Source: a virus | Direction: 5' to 3' (one strand) | IMG/VR virus record: IMGVR_UViG_3300028895_000297 | Span: 1 to 24,480 of that record | Length of the DNA: 24,480 bases | Part shown: positions 2,062-23,664 of the stretch, piece by piece | How the letters are laid out: each line of letters begins with the position of its first letter | How positions within the stretch are numbered: position 1 is the stretch's first letter | The notes under the pieces: generated by a model | Database searches by the model: none | Told to the model about the DNA's origin: nothing | The model's input: the letters and a program-made list of their open reading frames with translations, nothing else | Position numbers and translations under genes: made by a program

Positions 2062-2070
2062 TGCTATACT
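2062..2070 (+). promoter_or_regulatory. extended -10 promoter (TGCTATACT)
   Basis: TG-C-TATACT forms an extended -10 element with no good -35. The same nine bases, or the TATAAT variant, recur at 2612, 15352, 16887 and 18994, always in intergenic or gene-start positions, which supports a phage promoter class. The transcript would begin near 2077. Confidence 0.55.
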
Positions 2071-2076
2071 CGAAAC

Positions 2077-2158
2077 GTACCTTTAAGGTATGTTCATACA
2101 CAGGAGCTAAAGTGTGGTTACTTTCTCCAAACCAGGCCCCCTTGTGGGGCTTTGGTGT
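2077..2158 (+). ncRNA. candidate small structured RNA 1
   Basis: Downstream of the extended -10 at 2062 lies an approximately 80-nt stretch with three stems and no convincing reading frame. They are TACC/GGTA (2078-2090); GGAG-(CT)-AAAGT paired with ACTTT-CTCC (2103-2113/2120-2128, loop GTGGTT); and GCCCC/GGGGC (2136-2140/2146-2150) followed by TTT, which looks like an intrinsic terminator. Promoter plus hairpins plus terminator suggests a stand-alone small RNA, though an attenuated leader of the zinc-finger gene at 2275 is equally possible. Confidence 0.35.
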
Positions 2159-2228
2159 TCTTGTAGAATACAGAGATACAGGCTTTCATTGGTGGCAGTC
2201 TGTATCGCCCAGCACAGCCCGAGTAGTG

Positions 2229-2260
2229 GATAAGTCCCCTTTGTAAAGAGGGGTCTTATC
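2229..2260 (+). terminator. long hairpin before the zinc-finger gene
   Basis: GATAAG (2229-2234) pairs with CTTATC (2255-2260) and CCCC (2236-2239) with GGGG (2250-2253), separated by a single T-T mismatch, with a short A/T-rich tip. It makes a long stable stem but has no T run after it on the + strand. A smaller inverted repeat, GATACAG/CTGTATC (2175-2181/2200-2206), lies just upstream. Confidence 0.4.
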
Positions 2261-2262
2261 GT

Positions 2263-2268
2263 TACAAT
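2263..2268 (+). promoter_or_regulatory. -10 box placed for a leaderless transcript
   Basis: TACAAT ends 6 nt before the ATG at 2275, so transcription would start at or next to the start codon. A weak -35 (TTGTAA, 2241-2246) lies in the hairpin loop with a 16-nt spacer. There is no room for a Shine-Dalgarno site on such a transcript. Confidence 0.4.
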
Positions 2269-2274
2269 GTAGGT

Positions 2275-2611: not shown

Positions 2612-2620
2612 TGCTATACT
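2612..2620 (+). promoter_or_regulatory. extended -10 promoter (TGCTATACT)
   Basis: Identical in nine bases to the element at 2062 (GTGCTATACT at both sites). No clear -35 is present. It lies directly after the tandem hairpins and would start RNA near 2627, 139 nt before the replication gene's likely ATG. Confidence 0.55.
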
Positions 2621-2626
2621 TTGTGA

Positions 2627-2757
2627 AGCAATTTCATATTGCAACCAGAGGTAAATGTGCTAATTTACACGTGAAGCTCCTATGCGGAGCGGGATGGGCC
2701 TCGGCCCGCGGTCTGCACAGCCGTCTCTGAGTCCCGACCCGCATAGGGGTTTTATTA
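2627..2757 (+). ncRNA. candidate structured RNA 2 / terminator-type leader of the replication operon
   Basis: The main stem is CCTATGCGG (2679-2687) pairing with CCGCATAGG (2739-2747), a 2x2 internal loop (AG/AC), then CGGGA (2690-2694) with TCCCG (2732-2736). Inside are two more hairpins, GGGC-CTCG-GCCC (2696-2707) and CGG/CCG (2709-2723), giving a multi-branched fold. TTTTATTATTA follows, so it can act as a terminator. A competing hairpin GCTCC/GGAGC (2676-2690) would break the main stem. Upstream are GCAAT/ATTGC (2628-2642) and GTAAAT/ATTTAC (2651-2668). It could be a free RNA or an RNA switch controlling the genes at 2766-5362. Confidence 0.45.
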
Positions 2758-2765
2758 TTACTTAT

Positions 2766-3500
2766 ATGAATTACGAACCAGGGTCCTTCTTTGTAGTGCC
2801 AAACCGAGAACAGCTGCGAAGTTTGAGTTGTTACACTCAGTCAGTTTTTATTAACCTATGCTCACGAGCGAACAATGACGGCACATGTTGGCCCTCTATA
2901 AAGAAGCTGGCTGAAGATGCTGGTATGAGTGAGACTAAGGTAAAGGAGTCACTCCGTGAGCTGGAGAAGGCAGGGCTCATCAAGACGAAACAGCGCCAAA
3001 TGGAGAACGGCGGACTTAGCTCAAATAGCTACCAATTACTCATCTGCGAGGGGGGTGGGTCACGTCACGACCCAGGGGTGGGTCGTGTGGCGCCTAGTAA
3101 TGATAACCAGTTAGAACGAAAAATTGTTTCTCTGCGAGAAACGTCTTCTCCTAACGAGACGACGACAGCTGAGGAGGAAGAAACCACCCTCGTTGAGTGT
3201 GATGATTGGGGCGAGGAAATTGAACAAAAGAAGTCAAAGAAAGACCCCCGCACTGATGCAGTGATAAACCACTTCAAGAAGACTATTGTCCGAGACTTAG
3301 GAACCAGACCAGCTGTTGCGTTAGCTGTCGCACGTAAGATGGTAAATTCCGCACTCACTCACCTAACAGAGCCACAGTTGAAGGAAATGATTAGTGACTG
3401 GACAGCACAGGGATTACCAGACCACGAAACAATGCAGATAACTAGGTGTTTATCCACAGCCCAGATAAACAAGTTCAAGGCTGAGCGTGGTATAAAGTAA
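2766..3500 (+). CDS. winged-helix replication initiation-like protein
   Basis: 244 residues from ATG 2766. The N-terminal 90 residues form a replication-protein-type helix-turn-helix: YTQSVFINLCSRAN, DGTCWPSIKKLAEDAGMSE, KVKESLRELEKAGLIKTKQR. This matches the helix-turn-helix domain of phage/plasmid initiators and DnaD-like loaders. An acidic, low-complexity linker (TTTAEEEETTLVE) and a C-terminal helical domain follow. The frame is open back to ATG 2682, but that would translate through the structured RNA and add R/S/P-rich residues that do not look like protein, so I prefer 2766. A perfect DnaA box lies near its 3' end (3450-3458). The helicase starts 2 nt after its stop, consistent with initiator plus helicase working together. 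Confidence 0.7.
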   Translation: MNYEPGSFFVVPNREQLRSLSCYTQSVFINLCSRANNDGTCWPSIKKLAEDAGMSETKVKESLRELEKAGLIKTKQRQMENGGLSSNSYQLLICEGGGSRHDPGVGRVAPSNDNQLERKIVSLRETSSPNETTTAEEEETTLVECDDWGEEIEQKKSKKDPRTDAVINHFKKTIVRDLGTRPAVALAVARKMVNSALTHLTEPQLKEMISDWTAQGLPDHETMQITRCLSTAQINKFKAERGIK

Positions 3501-3502
3501 AC

Positions 3503-5362
3503 ATGAGTGAAACGAACTTTGAAGAACTAGAAGCTGCCCTCGTTGATTACGATGGTGAGGACCGAATGATTAGCAGCTTGGAGCTTGCTGAACGTATCGG
3601 TGATGAAGCTCCGAAAGTCATCCCCACAGGCATTGGCTCACTGGATGCCATTATAGACGGGGCGGAGCCGGGTGAACTCATTGTCGTCACCGGACCTTCA
3701 GGAGAGGGTAAGTGTCTTGGGCGCGGGACAGAGGTAATTATGTTCGACGGACATAAGAAGAAAGTTGAAGACATTGTTGTTGGTGACTTATTGATGGGGA
3801 AAGATTCAACGCCAAGAAGGGTACTCGCCCTTGGTGGAGGCAAGGAACAGATGTATAAGGTGACACCGATGCGTGGTAAACCGTTTGTGTGTAATGAGTC
3901 TCATATTCTTTCTGTTGTTCGTCACATTCAACGGAAGACTGATGGAGTTAAACACCTTGAGCCGTACACAACAACAATAAGTGTGCGCGACTACCTCAAT
4001 CTAAGTGAGACTCAAAAATCGTTGACTAGGTTGTATCGTGTACCGGTTGATTGGGATCATGCTGACGTTACCGTGGACCCATACTTCCTCGGTCTTTGGC
4101 TTGGCGATGGGCACTCAAACGGCACGCTGATAACAACAGCTGATAAGGAGATTGTTGACTATCTTTATGAGTATGCGGCGCTCCATGAGATGAAGATTGT
4201 GCGCGTTGAACAGGCGAACAATAAGTCATCCATATACAGACTCTCGAAGGGTTGGAGGAATGATGTTTTGTTGCATATGAAACTCCTTGGCGTGATAAAT
4301 AATAAGCACATTCCGCATGTCTACAAAGCAAACAGTAGGCTTGTGCGATTAAACATGCTGGCCGGACTTTTGGACTCAGATGGGTATGTAAACAGGACCG
4401 GTTATGTGTTTTCAAATAAAAATAAGCAGTTGGCACAAGATGTGGAGTTTTTGGCGCAGTCACTTGGCTTGTTCGCGAGTATAGGAACGCATTATGTTGA
4501 CGGAACTGAATACTACAAGGTGTACATCAGTGGTGATTGTTCGGTCATACCGGTAAAAATTGCACGGAAGGCTGTTCCTAAACGGAAAATAAACAAAGAC
4601 ATTCTCCTAACCAACATTAAAACGATTGAACCAGTTGGTGTCGATGATTACTATGGTGTGGTTCTTGGTGACGACCATGAGTATCTGCTCGGTGATTTTA
4701 CTGTCACGCACAACACTACAATGCTTATGTCCATCACCCAGAACCTAACTGAGAAGAGCGCATGGTTCACACTTGAGGTCACACCACAGCAGTTCATTCG
4801 TAAGATGAAAGCCCGTGGTGTGCTCCCAGAGTTCTACGTTCCCAACGAGAACACAGAGTCTCACATCAAGTGGTTGGAAGAGCGCATCATTGAGTCAGTG
4901 GTGAAATACAACACCCGCATCATTTTCATAGACCACATCCATATGATTATGTCCCTGGCGAAATACCAGCAGAACATTTCATTGGAGATAGGCGACCTCG
5001 TCCAGCGCATCAAACAGCTGGCAATCAAGTACGGCCTAGTCATCTTCCTCATTGCTCACTGTTTGGATAACAAGACAGCACCCACAGCTGAAATCCGCAA
5101 GGAAGACATCAGGGACTCCGGCATGATTATCCGTATTGCTGACACCATCCTCGGTGTGTGGCGCATCAGGAACGACGATGACGTGGATGTGAAGCGCCGC
5201 CCCAACGACTTGGACGAGAACGACAACAAGGCAAAGGTTCGTGTGCTGAAGAATCGTAAGACTGGAAAGCTAGGAGCCATCGCGCTTTACCATTATGATC
5301 ACTATCTAACCGAGCATGACCCACGATACCCATATGACGCAGATGGCAACAAGCTTGTATAA
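3503..5362 (+). CDS. DnaB-like replicative helicase (RecA-fold ATPase) containing an intein
   Basis: 619 residues, of which about 285 are the mature helicase. The N-extein ends at the P-loop GPSGEGK (64-70) and the C-extein resumes TTMLMS, so splicing rebuilds GPSGEGKTT, the Walker A motif. Later motifs are FTLEV (422-426, the DnaB-type catalytic Glu), RIIFIDH (Walker B, 472-478), LVIFLIAH, and the C-terminal KNRKTGKLGAI region typical of RecA-fold DnaB relatives. The N-terminal domain of full DnaB is missing, so this is the short phage/RepA-like type. It should unwind the replication fork after loading by the upstream winged-helix protein. The start ATG 3503 follows TAAAC with no Shine-Dalgarno. 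The last 20 nt overlap the next gene. Confidence 0.8.
   Translation: MSETNFEELEAALVDYDGEDRMISSLELAERIGDEAPKVIPTGIGSLDAIIDGAEPGELIVVTGPSGEGKCLGRGTEVIMFDGHKKKVEDIVVGDLLMGKDSTPRRVLALGGGKEQMYKVTPMRGKPFVCNESHILSVVRHIQRKTDGVKHLEPYTTTISVRDYLNLSETQKSLTRLYRVPVDWDHADVTVDPYFLGLWLGDGHSNGTLITTADKEIVDYLYEYAALHEMKIVRVEQANNKSSIYRLSKGWRNDVLLHMKLLGVINNKHIPHVYKANSRLVRLNMLAGLLDSDGYVNRTGYVFSNKNKQLAQDVEFLAQSLGLFASIGTHYVDGTEYYKVYISGDCSVIPVKIARKAVPKRKINKDILLTNIKTIEPVGVDDYYGVVLGDDHEYLLGDFTVTHNTTMLMSITQNLTEKSAWFTLEVTPQQFIRKMKARGVLPEFYVPNENTESHIKWLEERIIESVVKYNTRIIFIDHIHMIMSLAKYQQNISLEIGDLVQRIKQLAIKYGLVIFLIAHCLDNKTAPTAEIRKEDIRDSGMIIRIADTILGVWRIRNDDDVDVKRRPNDLDENDNKAKVRVLKNRKTGKLGAIALYHYDHYLTEHDPRYPYDADGNKLV
3713..4714 (+). 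mobile_element. intein with LAGLIDADG homing endonuclease inside the helicase P-loop
   Basis: 334 residues (71-404 of the helicase). Splicing elements: Cys71 first residue with CLGRGTEV (block A), CNESH (130-134, block B His), a DDYYGVVLGDDHEYLLGDF-type block F, and terminal His403-Asn404 followed by Thr405 as +1 nucleophile. Endonuclease elements: LGLWLGDG (196-203) and LAGLLDSDG (286-294), the two DOD motifs. All catalytic residues are in place, so both splicing and homing look intact. Base use is more A/T- and GTT-rich than in the flanking extein codons, consistent with horizontal acquisition. Confidence 0.85.
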
Positions 5363-13638: not shown

Positions 13639-14193
13639 CTATAGGTTGCGGAAGTAGTACCCCGCCTCCTCGCTATAGTCGTACATTAGTTCACGGGCAG
13701 CGCGCTCCCAGTCAATGCAGTAGTGTGGCCAGCGTGTTTCTGTTGGTACTTCTCCAATGTTTTCTGCCATGTCCTGTGCAAACTCCTCGTCGCTGTCGTA
13801 CTGTCCTGCGTATGCCTCCTCGAAGTTGTCGAGGCCATTATCACTTTCGATACCCAGTGCTAGATACGCGTCAACGGCTCCCTGGTCGTACTGGTTGCAT
13901 AGGTCGAAGTATTGCTCTGTTTGTTCGTCGATGTATTTTGCAACTCGTATGCCTTTGTGCTTATCCGGTGTTGTGATAGTCTCATGAAGCTCTGTTTTCG
14001 TCATGTCTGGCCCCACAAAGTACTCACCGTCTATGGCGAAGTACGAACCGTATACCGGCTCGCCGTGCTTGTTGTGCGTTGTTGGCTCCCCAATGAGAAA
14101 AGCCCGTATGTTTGCGTGGCTATCCATTGCAGCAGGTGGTAGTACCTCAAGCGCGCTATTGTACGCACGCTCTGTAATGCGTTTGTATTCCAT
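13639..14193 (-). CDS. ardA: two-domain protein with C-terminal ArdA-type antirestriction domain
   Basis: 184 residues from the minus-strand ATG at 14193 (context AAAAAAC-ATG; the frame is open further, but that part looks random). Residues about 1-75 form a separate module (ALEVLPPAAMDSHANIRAFL, IGEPTTHNKHGEPVYGSYF). Residues about 95-184 match the ArdA C-terminal pattern: NFEEAYAGQYDSDEEFAQ, then RWPHYCIDWERAARELMYDY and YYFRN. ArdA is an acidic DNA mimic that occupies type I restriction enzymes, and the segment here is strongly acidic. In a phage the expected job is to protect incoming DNA. The N-terminal module is not part of classical ArdA, so this is a fusion or a diverged relative. The symbol applies to the C-terminal domain only. 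Confidence 0.65.
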   Translation of the reverse strand: MEYKRITERAYNSALEVLPPAAMDSHANIRAFLIGEPTTHNKHGEPVYGSYFAIDGEYFVGPDMTKTELHETITTPDKHKGIRVAKYIDEQTEQYFDLCNQYDQGAVDAYLALGIESDNGLDNFEEAYAGQYDSDEEFAQDMAENIGEVPTETRWPHYCIDWERAARELMYDYSEEAGYYFRNL

Positions 14194-14263
14194 GTTTTTT
14201 CTGTTATGTAGTAGGCCGTGGCCCACGTTGCTAAAGAACGGGCGCGCCACCACTAGCAAGTGA

Positions 14264-14307
14264 TAGCCCGTATAGTATGCCCCGTATAGAGGCACACTAA
14301 CGGGCTA
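14264..14307. repeat. inverted repeat at a leftward gene end
   Basis: TAGCCCGT (14264-14271) and ACGGGCTA (14300-14307) are perfect 8-bp arms spanning the stop codon of the gene at 14305-14505. No T run follows on either strand, so an mRNA-stability or processing hairpin is more likely than a terminator. It lies in the 111-nt gap before the ArdA-like gene. Confidence 0.5.
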
Positions 14308-14505
14308 CGCTGTCATTTGCGCCACCTCTGCACAAGCAGCGTCAAAGGTACGTTGCGCGTCCTTTGGGGTGCAATCATACTCCCGTACAGGCCAGCCGTT
14401 GGGGTGTATAACTTCTACTCCCCCGCGCTGTGCCACATAGGTAACTCGTAGCTGCATGCTTTTATCAGCTTTCCAAACGTACGTAGATAAGTCTTTAGTT
14501 TCCAT
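14305..14505 (-). CDS. small hypothetical protein of the leftward cassette
   Basis: 66 residues from the minus-strand ATG at 14505 (context ACAACAAC-ATG). The product METKDLSTYVWKADKSMQLR has beta-type segments (LRVTYVAQRGGVEVIHPNG) followed by an Ala-rich helix (AQRTFDAACAEVAQM). The frame continues upstream, but those residues are arginine/serine-rich and overlap the neighbouring gene, so this start is preferred. No family is recognised. Confidence 0.55.
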   Translation of the reverse strand: METKDLSTYVWKADKSMQLRVTYVAQRGGVEVIHPNGWPVREYDCTPKDAQRTFDAACAEVAQMTA

Positions 14506-15612: not shown

Positions 15613-16881
15613 ATGGTCTCTGATACAAAGATCCAAAAGAAGATTAAGTGGCAACCACACGAAGCTCAGTTGGGAGTGTTAAAGGCAGTGAAGGAGGGAA
15701 AGAGGGAGATTGTCCTTAGTTGTGGGAGACGTTGGGGGAAAAGTGCGCTTTGTGCCTATATCGCCCTCAGGGTCCTTTTTGGCGAGCGGAAGAACATTTG
15801 GGTTGTTTCCCCTACATACGACCTATCACAGAAGGTTTTTAATTACGTTGTGCGTTGGTTCTCTATTTTAGCTCCCTCTCAGAGGGGGGGAGTTTCAAAT
15901 AGACCATATCCGAAGATAAAAACGGCCAAAGGTTCCGTATTGGAATGTAAGTCTGCGGAAAACCCTACCTCTCTATTGGGTGAAGAACTTGACCTCCTTA
16001 TCATTGACGAGGCATCCAGAGTCCCCCGTAGGGTGTGGGAGCAATTTCTATTCCCTACACTCTCCAGTCGTAAAGGTGCGGCTATCTTTATCAGCACCCC
16101 TATGGGGAAAAATTGGTTTTATGAAGAGTACATCAAGGCAAAAGAACACAATGCAGCGTTTAACCACCCTAGTAACTCAAATCCCCACCTTTCTCAGGAG
16201 GAGTGGGACCGAGCCAAGGAAAAACTCCCAGAGGACATATTCAACCAAGAGTATAAAGCAACATTCCTCGATGACGCTGCCGCAGTCTTTAAAGGAATTG
16301 ACTCTATTGTTCACGAACAGTGCCTTGCAGAACCGTCAGAAGGGCATAGTTACGTCATGGGAGTTGACCTCGGAAAGCACAACGACTTTACGGTCATCAC
16401 CGTCATCGACACCTATAACAATCACGTAGTGTATATTGAACGGTTTAATAAGATTGACTACGCCCTCCAGAAGGAACGTATCAAGGCGGTTGCTCAGAAA
16501 TACCACGCTAGAGTCCTCGTTGACTCTACGGGAGTGGGAGATCCTATATTTGAAGACCTGAGACGAGATTCCATCGTTATTGACGATTACAAGTACGGTG
16601 GCAGTAAATCAAAGGGTCGTCTTATCGACAAACTCTCTATATTCATCCAACAGAAGAACGTCTGGATACCCAACCACCAAATCCTCATTGATGAGCTTAA
16701 ATCCTTTGGTTACAACATGACTGAGTCCGGCAACGTAAAGTACAGTGCTCCAGCCGGATACCATGATGACTGTGTTAATTCACTCGCACTTGCGGTCTAC
16801 CAGCTGGAAGGAGAAGCCCTAAGCGAGGAAGGCGCCACCCAACTGGAGGAATACGACCTCTACCAGCAAAGCTACGCATAG
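15613..16881 (+). CDS. terL: terminase large subunit
   Basis: 422 residues, full length. ATPase domain: CGRRWGKSA (37-45, Walker A of the terminase type), VVSPTYDLSQKVF, LLIIDEAS (128-135, Walker B with catalytic Glu), and FISTPMGKNWFY (coupling motif). RNase H-like nuclease domain: VMGVDLGKHNDFT (D252), VLVDSTGVGD (D304) and HDDCVNSLALAV (D385/D386), the metal-binding acids. It pumps DNA into the prohead and cuts concatemers. The gene heads the late operon, directly followed by the portal. A TATACT box 7 nt before the ATG predicts a leaderless transcript. Confidence 0.9.
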   Translation: MVSDTKIQKKIKWQPHEAQLGVLKAVKEGKREIVLSCGRRWGKSALCAYIALRVLFGERKNIWVVSPTYDLSQKVFNYVVRWFSILAPSQRGGVSNRPYPKIKTAKGSVLECKSAENPTSLLGEELDLLIIDEASRVPRRVWEQFLFPTLSSRKGAAIFISTPMGKNWFYEEYIKAKEHNAAFNHPSNSNPHLSQEEWDRAKEKLPEDIFNQEYKATFLDDAAAVFKGIDSIVHEQCLAEPSEGHSYVMGVDLGKHNDFTVITVIDTYNNHVVYIERFNKIDYALQKERIKAVAQKYHARVLVDSTGVGDPIFEDLRRDSIVIDDYKYGGSKSKGRLIDKLSIFIQQKNVWIPNHQILIDELKSFGYNMTESGNVKYSAPAGYHDDCVNSLALAVYQLEGEALSEEGATQLEEYDLYQQSYA

Positions 16882-16886
16882 TTATT

Positions 16887-16895
16887 TGCTATAAT
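16887..16895 (+). promoter_or_regulatory. extended -10 promoter (TGCTATAAT), leaderless spacing
   Basis: TG-C-TATAAT is a consensus extended -10. It ends 6 nt before the portal ATG at 16902, so the RNA start should coincide with the start codon. Confidence 0.65.
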
Positions 16896-16901
16896 GACAC
16901 A

Positions 16902-18701
16902 ATGACAAAAGAAGACGCTCAAGCGCAAGCTATTGAAATAGTAAAGAAGGAGGTGGAAACCTGGCGTGACCCTACAGTATTTATTACTGATAAGGTTGCC
17001 TTTGCTATCAAACCCCTTATAAGACAACTCCGAAAGAATTATTACGGTGTATTCGACCAACCAAAAGACAAAATTACCGGCCGCTCTAAAACATGGGTGC
17101 CCCTTACTCAGATGGTGGTTGATAACACCAGGAAGAACGTAGACCTCGACACCAAGGATATTAACTTCTTCTCCAACAACCCGAATGGTCTCGGGATTAC
17201 CCAGTTGCTCCGTGCAACACTCCGAACCTACCTAGACCGCACCTATTATGGGGAGGACATGGATAACGTTACATTTAACGTATGTGTGGACCCGGTCTCC
17301 ATCATGCAGATTTACGCTGCAAAGCAGAAAGGAAAGATTGCCGTGAAGCGTTCAGTAATTGACCCACTCAATATATACATTGACCCTGCTGCGAAAAGTA
17401 TTCAGGATGCCTACCGCTTCACCCACAAGAAACTACTGACCTCCAATGAAGTAACCGCTATGGACGGGTGGGAGAACACTGGCAAGGCAAAGGCAACTAC
17501 CAAGAACGAGGCAGATGACTTCCGTCCTGCTTACAGCAAGACGACCAAGCTTGTAGACACCTACGAGATGTGGGGACTCGTGCCGAAGTCGCTCATCACG
17601 CTTAATGAGGAGGACGAGGGTGAGGTAGAGGCACAGATTGTTGTCTCCAACATAAACGACGACCCAGTTCTTCACGTATTGAAGGAGAACAAAGAAACTG
17701 ATCCAGAGGGCAATGTCATCAAGCCATTTGAGGACACCCGCTATATGAAGATTCCGTGGAGCTTCTACGGTATTTCACCTGCAATGAAGGTCATGGATAT
17801 TCAGGAATGGATTAACACGATTGTCAACCTGCGCATAAACAAGAACACTGTTGCACAGTTGGGCCTCTTTAAGGTCAGGGCCGGCAGTAATATCAACACG
17901 CAGTCCCTTACCCGTCTTGTCTCTAATGGAGTCATAAAGGTCACGAACATGGATGACCTTGATAACTTCCAAATCCCTGAAGCAGGGGCTGGTTCATACA
18001 AGGACGAGGAGACCGCTAAGTTCTGGGCGACCGAGGTAACCTCAGCATATGACGTCGTCCGTAGCTCTCTCCCTTCCACCACCACAGCCACCGCAGCAGT
18101 TATTCAGGACAAGAACTCCAAGACCTCATTCGTCATTGTCCGTGAAGGTTTGGGCATGTTCAACGAGAAGGTAGTACAGCGTCATATCTTGAAATACCTC
18201 CCACAACTCCTCAAGAAACAGGGCACCGTTCGCTACATGTCAGACTTTGATGAGATAGATAATCTCCGTGAACGAGTCGTAGCAGTTGCAGCAAAACGTG
18301 AGCTTGATAGAATGGGTGGAGTAGGGGCAGTTCCTACTGAACTAGAGCTTCAGTCAGCAATGGATCGCGCACGGAAGAAGATTGACGGCGACATGTTTAT
18401 AGACGTTGTATCGGACGTTGCAATAGATGGCATAGAGACACGTGTCCAAGTGACGAACGAGAAGATGGATACCGGCACAATGGCACGCAACCTTCTTGAG
18501 CTGATGCAGCTACTTCCACCGGAAGCACAGCGAGAGACAGCCGCAGACATCTACGATGTACTCGGCATGACTCCACCAAAGTCACTCATGTCACCCATTC
18601 AACCTCAGCAACCAGACCAGGTTCCACAAAAGCCACAAACGATAGGCGAGATGGGACAATTCCTTGAAGCTAATACGGCACAGAATCAAGGCACTATTTA
18701 A
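16902..18701 (+). CDS. portal protein
   Basis: 599 residues directly after the terminase, the standard portal position and size. Recognisable features: the N-terminal YYGVFDQPKDKITGRSKTWV segment (large podovirus/P22-type portals share the R-S-K-x-W-V-P pattern), SVIDPLNIYIDPAAKSIQDA, ISPAMKVMDIQEWINTIVNL, and a C-terminal Gln/Pro-rich tail (PIQPQQPDQVPQKPQT). The portal forms the dodecameric ring through which DNA enters. The stop overlaps the next start by one base (TAATG), so the two are translationally coupled. Confidence 0.8.
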   Translation: MTKEDAQAQAIEIVKKEVETWRDPTVFITDKVAFAIKPLIRQLRKNYYGVFDQPKDKITGRSKTWVPLTQMVVDNTRKNVDLDTKDINFFSNNPNGLGITQLLRATLRTYLDRTYYGEDMDNVTFNVCVDPVSIMQIYAAKQKGKIAVKRSVIDPLNIYIDPAAKSIQDAYRFTHKKLLTSNEVTAMDGWENTGKAKATTKNEADDFRPAYSKTTKLVDTYEMWGLVPKSLITLNEEDEGEVEAQIVVSNINDDPVLHVLKENKETDPEGNVIKPFEDTRYMKIPWSFYGISPAMKVMDIQEWINTIVNLRINKNTVAQLGLFKVRAGSNINTQSLTRLVSNGVIKVTNMDDLDNFQIPEAGAGSYKDEETAKFWATEVTSAYDVVRSSLPSTTTATAAVIQDKNSKTSFVIVREGLGMFNEKVVQRHILKYLPQLLKKQGTVRYMSDFDEIDNLRERVVAVAAKRELDRMGGVGAVPTELELQSAMDRARKKIDGDMFIDVVSDVAIDGIETRVQVTNEKMDTGTMARNLLELMQLLPPEAQRETAADIYDVLGMTPPKSLMSPIQPQQPDQVPQKPQTIGEMGQFLEANTAQNQGTI

Positions 18702-23271: not shown

Positions 23272-23310
23272 CCCCACGCAAGAGGAAGACTTGAAACTTA
23301 GCTAGTAATG

Positions 23311-23316
23311 TATAAT
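23311..23316 (+). promoter_or_regulatory. consensus -10 with leaderless spacing
   Basis: TATAAT ends 6 nt before the ATG at 23323. A possible -35 (GACTTG) lies 17 nt upstream. The predicted RNA starts at the start codon. Confidence 0.6.
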
Positions 23317-23322
23317 TGACCT

Positions 23323-23664
23323 ATGGATCGCATTGAACCTGAACAGCCTCAGCAAGAGGCCAGTTACAACGAGGAGGGGAGCATACAACAACAACGCAAC
23401 ATGAACTTCCTGGCTCTCAAGGGTTATTTTGGCAAAGAGAACATCTCTGCCAAAGAGGAAGATCAGTTGAACACTATCTACGACCTCGTGACCGGCGGTG
23501 ACATGCGCGAAATGGGGGGAGTGCTCCTTTTCTTGCGATCCGTAGAAAATAAGCTTGGGGTTGCACCTCTCGGGGAGTCACGTATCTCACAAGTGTATAA
23601 TTACCTAACAGTTCTGGGCTCGATTCAGGACTTAACCGCAGAGAAGGCGGCACTAGAGCAATGA
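23323..23664 (+). CDS. hypothetical structural-module protein
   Basis: 113 residues. The N-terminus is Gln/Glu-rich and probably disordered (IEPEQPQQEASYNEEGSIQQ). The rest is helical (KEEDQLNTIYDLVTGGDMRE, RISQVYNYLTVLGSIQDL). Preceded by a TATAAT at leaderless distance and overlapping the next gene by 4 nt. Probably a head or neck component; no specific family is seen. Confidence 0.55.
   Translation: MDRIEPEQPQQEASYNEEGSIQQQRNMNFLALKGYFGKENISAKEEDQLNTIYDLVTGGDMREMGGVLLFLRSVENKLGVAPLGESRISQVYNYLTVLGSIQDLTAEKAALEQ

Follow-up and report, generated by a model that had tools for sequence, protein, structure and literature searches.

The window analysed here is a 24,480-bp stretch of viral DNA (IMG/VR virus record IMGVR_UViG_3300028895_000297, positions 1–24,480) in which the replication genes come first and the head genes after. 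An SSB-like gene lies at 1406, followed by a replication initiator of the HTH_36/DnaD- and O-like type (2766–3500, + strand), which has no Shine–Dalgarno sequence, and by an intein-interrupted DnaB-type helicase gene (3503–5362, + strand); a gene for an ordinary large terminase lies at 15613 and the portal gene at 16902. The intein consists of Hint plus LAGLIDADG and is inserted directly after the Walker A motif GEGK, and the helicase of the closest relative described below (G001) has no intein. In G004, a glycosyltransferase-like gene is split by about 1 kb (L023 2760–3802), possibly by an intron or an inserted endonuclease gene. The structured RNA considered here is intergenic, located between a gene end at 2544 and the initiator. 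When bacterial genomes were searched with the helicase, a single distant Margulisiibacteriota contig was found, which we do not take as a host assignment; the capsid protein had no match in bacterial genomes.

Few genes of these phages have Shine–Dalgarno sequences, and some window genes have a −10 element just 6–9 nt 5′ of the ATG (16887–16902, 2260–2275 and 23310–23323, among others). The scarcity of Shine–Dalgarno sequences and the ATG-proximal −10 elements suggest that transcripts are leaderless and that the host translates such messages. The replication operon is the exception to these leaderless-like genes, as its leader is long.

The unit upstream is closed by a terminator-like hairpin, CCCACCA..TGGTGGG-TTT (2582–2604, + strand, from direct reading of the sequence), which abuts the promoter of the leader. 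Its T tail scores 2.33 on a simple scale of T richness, between the 95th and 99th percentiles of the window, and G001 has an ordinary terminator at the equivalent position. The extended −10 element that a first-pass annotation of this DNA had placed upstream of the RNA is present (TGTGCTATACT, core TGCTATACT; 2610–2620, + strand), with a predicted RNA 5′ end near 2627, and G001 carries TGCTATAAT at the equivalent place (L004 6600–6608, minus strand). The motif TGNTATAMT occurs at six sites in the window, all on the + strand, a number reached by none of 100 shuffles, and we take it to define a real promoter class in this phage. A second TGCTATACT promoter and, after it, a structured leader of about 200 nt (z −3.6) lie upstream of the small gene at 2275 (window 2062–2274). 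Another very stable leader is found on the minus strand at 14185–14360 (−73.7 kcal/mol, z −4.8), before a gene starting at 14193.

The first-pass annotation had described a multi-branched RNA ahead of the replication operon, and the stems that it named are indeed there: CCTATGCGG (2679–2687) faces CCGCATAGG (2739–2747) and CGGGA (2690–2694) faces TCCCG (2732–2736), followed by TTTTATTATTA. Thermodynamic folding recovered this RNA in a larger form than first described. In the minimum free-energy (MFE) fold of 2671–2755 (+ strand), a basal stem of 17 bp (2671–2687 with 2739–2755) is separated by a 2 × 2 internal loop (2688–2689/2737–2738) from an inner stem of 6 bp (2690–2695 with 2731–2736), which opens into a three-way junction with two hairpins. 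Hairpin 1 (2696–2707) has 4 bp and the loop CUCG; hairpin 2 (2708–2724) has 5 bp and a 7-nt loop; and an unpaired 6-nt strand, CUCUGA (2725–2730; UCUUAC in G001), completes the junction. The 3′ strand of the basal stem takes in UUUUAU of a U-rich tract, UUUUAUUAUUA (2750–2760). Two small hairpins lie 5′ of the domain in the MFE fold (GCAAU..AUUGC, 2628–2642, and GUAAAU..AUUUAC, 2651–2668); both are absent from G001, the RNA of which begins about at the basal stem. The initiator ATG (2766) is about 10–11 nt 3′ of the end of the RNA, and the start codons that follow the leader are mostly unpaired in the predicted folds.

This structure is exceptionally stable. The folding energy is −58.9 kcal/mol for 2627–2765 (z −4.83) and −50.3 kcal/mol for 2671–2758 (z −5.62), each matched by 0 of 200 shuffles, and among 9,756 stretches of 90 nt scored on both window strands the most stable is this RNA. 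A descriptor of the architecture matched only the window site and the orthologous G001 site across about 290 kb of DNA from related viruses, and gave one weaker match among 605 Markov sequences, each 24.5 kb long. Because G–U pairs are used, folding favours the + strand over its complement in both phages (−48.1 versus −36.9 in the window and −43.7 versus −37.4 in G001), which argues that selection acts on the + strand RNA, read in the operon direction and transcribed with the operon.

Relatives were found by searching viral contigs with the terminase and capsid proteins. Searches of viral contigs with the initiator, the single-strand-binding protein and the exonuclease gave no close relatives; the exact DNA pattern of the stem was absent from these contigs, and no sequence-similar RNA was found in viral contigs or named phages. 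Neither the descriptor nor a covariance model detected this kind of RNA in named phages whose initiators or helicases are similar. The terminase led to a syntenic relative, IMGVR_UViG_3300049477_000096 (G001), the proteins of which share 75% (terminase), 86% (capsid protein), 48% (SSB-like protein) and 31% (helicase) identity with those of the window. Immediately 5′ of its initiator gene is the RNA GUAGAACAUUUACG-CA-GGGGGCG-C-GCGG(CUCG)CCGC-AAGGGA(ACAUGC)UCCCUU-UCUUAC-CGCCCCC-GU-CGUAAGUGUUUUAU (z −5.1), which has the structural plan of the window RNA in largely different letters. That the same shape is kept in a distant relative despite this divergence indicates that the RNA is real.

A covariance model (R1) for which the window sequence was the sole input, run in 20 kb with filters off, scored the G001 RNA at 32.9 bits (E 2.3e-7), with the runner-up site at 12.2 bits; with default filters the model missed the G001 RNA and listed one chance match. 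The search for compensating changes, set beforehand as the test that could overturn the first-pass annotation, found them in every helix. On a structure-fitted alignment of two sequences, in which covariation counts are supportive rather than exact, 14 of the 29 comparable pairs are identical, 6 have one-sided changes and 9 have two-sided changes, the last occurring in all four helices. The outer 14 pairs of the basal stem contribute 3 two-sided and 4 one-sided changes; hairpin 1 keeps an identical CUCG loop and covaries at 2 of its 4 stem pairs; and the counterpart of hairpin 2 in G001 has 6 bp and a 6-nt loop. Paired cells reach 93.8% on the model-fitted alignment versus 80.4% in shuffles (1 of 500 as high), and sliding the partners along the alignment lowers the double changes to 0–2, versus 9 in register. 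The orthologous position of the G001 RNA is evidence independent of these counts. The fold, its conservation, its strand and its place are thus computational observations.

The window and G001 are the two true members known. Model R2 has weak matches near a tRNA in G001 (L006, E 0.01–0.02) and in L032 (E 0.02), but these fold differently and are not members. In the same L006 (1150–1436), a tRNA-Tyr gene lies between two tRNA-sized structured elements, with repeated AGTACTTAA motifs separating them. A GUAAGA downstream of the G001 RNA, complementary to its junction strand UCUUAC, is taken as a chance occurrence; the 2-nt linker is too short to reach across the basal stem, and no such element occurs in the window. 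At the Rfam 15 gathering score there was no match, and relaxed E-values gave nothing relevant for the window or G001, in line with the earlier statement that the RNA belongs to no nameable class. A coding explanation was rejected: in both homologues the RNA is free of stops in the frame leading into the initiator ATG, but the two translations are unlike each other and G003 (below) has stops there. A hammerhead ribozyme, considered for its three-way junction, was rejected because the CUGANGA/GAAA core is absent by reading. The comparison therefore identifies the window RNA, at the level of sequence and predicted structure, as a conserved structured leader of a phage replication operon, in a class without a name that has two sequence-diverged members.

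A third relative, G003, has the capsid module in common with the window (capsid protein, 76%), and its replication genes start with what reads as a D5-like primase, a name given from reading the sequence rather than from a profile. Behind a TATAAT and about a dozen nucleotides before the primase ATG is a rod-like leader (L020 5390–5458, minus strand) of 11 bp, a 1 × 1 loop, 10 bp and a hairpin, followed by UUUAUUUUAA; it is equally stable (z −4.6) and differently shaped. The covariance model gives this rod only 15.8 bits (E 0.14), and we therefore regard it as a positional counterpart and not a homologue. Among the leaders of 156 open reading frames in five related phages, those of the G001 and G003 replication genes rank second and third in stability. 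The window, G001 and G003 thus have a common layout of a promoter, a very stable stem, a U-rich stretch and an ATG 10–17 nt later.

The built-in terminator proposed in the first-pass annotation is plausible. On the T-tail scale the U tract of the window scores 3.32, which exceeds the 99th percentile of the window and is like the values of ordinary terminators of these phages (3.24 and 3.03), and T richness equal to it precedes the ATG in 0.8% of 118 genes from three phages. Against it, the U tract of G001 scores 1.9 and the lower stem there is AU-rich, and the stem in both phages encloses a three-way junction of about 50 nt, far larger than the short 3–8-nt loop of an intrinsic terminator. The RNA resembles intrinsic terminators and attenuators in that a GC-rich closed stem leads into a U-rich tract, with an ordinary tail score in the window, and differs from them in having a conserved 50-nt branched domain as its loop and no conserved antiterminator fold; the G001 RNA differs further in its weak lower stem and U tract. 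In G001, the branched RNA and the ordinary terminator upstream of it have the same outer ends, AGAAC..GUUUUA.

We favour, at a probability of about 40%, a leaky terminator-type leader that would end part of the transcripts and leave an open start codon for those that read through. Host RNA polymerase would start near 2627 from TGCTATACT, and the first approximately 130 nt would fold as the three-way-junction RNA, its basal stem zipping into the U-rich tract just before the initiator start codon. Closure of the preformed branched domain onto this tract could end some transcripts and release an RNA of about 130 nt, whereas read-through transcripts would carry a stable 5′ structure and then an open, AU-rich start codon without a Shine–Dalgarno sequence. 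Partial termination and dosage control are what we infer: the supply of initiator and helicase, and likewise transcription toward the candidate origin within the initiator gene, would be held low and steady. The fold and its rarity, the recovery of the G001 RNA by a one-sequence model, the compensatory pairs in all four helices and the preference for the RNA strand in both phages speak for such a leader, as do the terminator-like U tract with its rare T richness before an ATG, the shared ends in G001, the mostly unpaired start codons and the recurrence of the layout in G001 and, before a different first replication gene, in G003. The weak lower stem and tail make strong termination doubtful in G001, the 50-nt branched domain is a loop unlike that of ordinary terminators, a −10-like TATTAT 7 nt 5′ of the initiator ATG in the window could make the U tract a leaderless promoter, and the reading rests on two true homologues.

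Alternatively, the stem may serve as a stabilizing and translation-insulating leader, guarding the operon mRNA from 5′-end-dependent decay and keeping the start codon open while the U-rich stretch serves the ribosome. The stem-to-ATG spacing is short and alike in three phages (10–17 nt) that differ in their replication genes and stems, the start codons are accessible, most genes of these phages are missing a Shine–Dalgarno sequence, and in G001 the U tract is poor but the stem is fine. Leaders of the ompA and T4 gene 32 type have stem-loops that stabilize mRNA, and the likeness lies in a stable stem near the 5′ end that is closely followed by an open start codon; here, the branched architecture is conserved by compensatory change, the basal stem of 14–17 bp reaches a U tract and there is no Shine–Dalgarno sequence. 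However, a plain hairpin would suffice for this role, which leaves unexplained the branched architecture and CUCG loop kept in two homologues, as well as the unusual T richness of the window, and we consider it possible but somewhat unlikely. The TATTAT before the ATG would instead fit a free small RNA of the phage, having a promoter and an end to itself, with transcription of the initiator left to that separate leaderless promoter. The upstream terminator and own promoter bracket the unit in both phages, −10-like hexamers recur 6–9 nt before ATGs, and the shape is kept while the sequence drifts. Yet G001 has no good −10 element beside its initiator ATG, its U tract is weak and the RNA is always directly 5′ of a replication gene, suggesting a role in cis; we regard this reading as quite unlikely.

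Other precedents are more distant. The put RNAs of phage HK022, which act in processive antitermination, are two adjacent stem-loops with a copy behind each early promoter, putL lying directly downstream of its own (PMC9378689), and the window RNA similarly is a structured RNA of about 70–90 nt immediately after an operon promoter. A put-like RNA would bind RNA polymerase on emerging from it, so that the enzyme resists pausing and termination throughout the replication operon, a role compatible with a conserved shape and needing no ligand. Unlike put (PMC9378689), the hairpins here are enclosed by a long 17-bp basal stem and have no sequence relation to it; moreover, each genome has a single copy, without a second in the window or G001, and no strong + strand terminator lies in the operon between 2766 and 10000, making this explanation very unlikely. 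The packaging RNA of phi29 is also a phage RNA with a three-way junction closed by a long 5′/3′ helix, but membership was rejected given the lack of an Rfam match, the ordinary large terminase and the position before replication genes.

Folds that exclude one another, in the manner of a classical attenuator or riboswitch, were also proposed in the first-pass annotation. The competing segments exist (GCTCC 2676–2680 with GGAGC 2686–2690, and GCGGG 2689–2693 with CCCGC 2705–2709), and the 2676–2690 hairpin is the first to form in folds of growing chains, transiently, before it is displaced near 2745. At full length, however, the equilibrium probabilities of the rivals are about 1e-9 (2676/2690) and 3e-7 (2689/2709), the 2676–2690 hairpin is absent from G001, and there is neither a ligand-like conserved core nor an Rfam match. 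The folding results give a switch between folds no support and point to a structured leader rather than a demonstrated riboswitch; we consider an attenuator or riboswitch highly improbable.

Least probable of all is that the element acts as DNA, as a cruciform or single-strand initiation site of an origin. Its inverted repeat adjoins replication genes, and a DnaA box, TTATCCACA, lies just 5′ of the promoter of the RNA in G001. But the + strand RNA folds better than its complement in both homologues, through G–U pairs, the element is weak as DNA (z −2.1) and origin-like iterons occur about 300 nt downstream, inside the initiator gene. These are two GGGGTGGGTC repeats (3052–3084, + strand), a candidate lambda-O-like origin, and G001 has two iteron-like GTGACGGATTTTCCGTC copies in its own initiator gene (L004 6168–6207). 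Because both phages carry such repeats within the initiator gene, the RNA itself is probably not the origin, and its promoter probably drives transcription toward it. Exact DnaA boxes exceed the expectation from base composition, with eight in G001 and three in the window (3450, 7763 and 10869).

Little is known of the conserved structured RNAs that phages of uncultured bacteria carry. Here, a structural plan is kept before the DNA replication genes of phages with helicases that are about 31% identical, and a counterpart occupies the equal position before an unrelated replication gene in G003. It is conceivable, if unlikely, that these RNAs represent a new class of phage RNA built on a three-way junction and govern the switch to genome replication, either through binding to host RNA polymerase, the ribosome or a nuclease, or by acting in trans after release as small RNAs. 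If the RNA does limit the dosage of the initiator, replication would be controlled at the RNA level in a phage that mostly lacks Shine–Dalgarno sequences.
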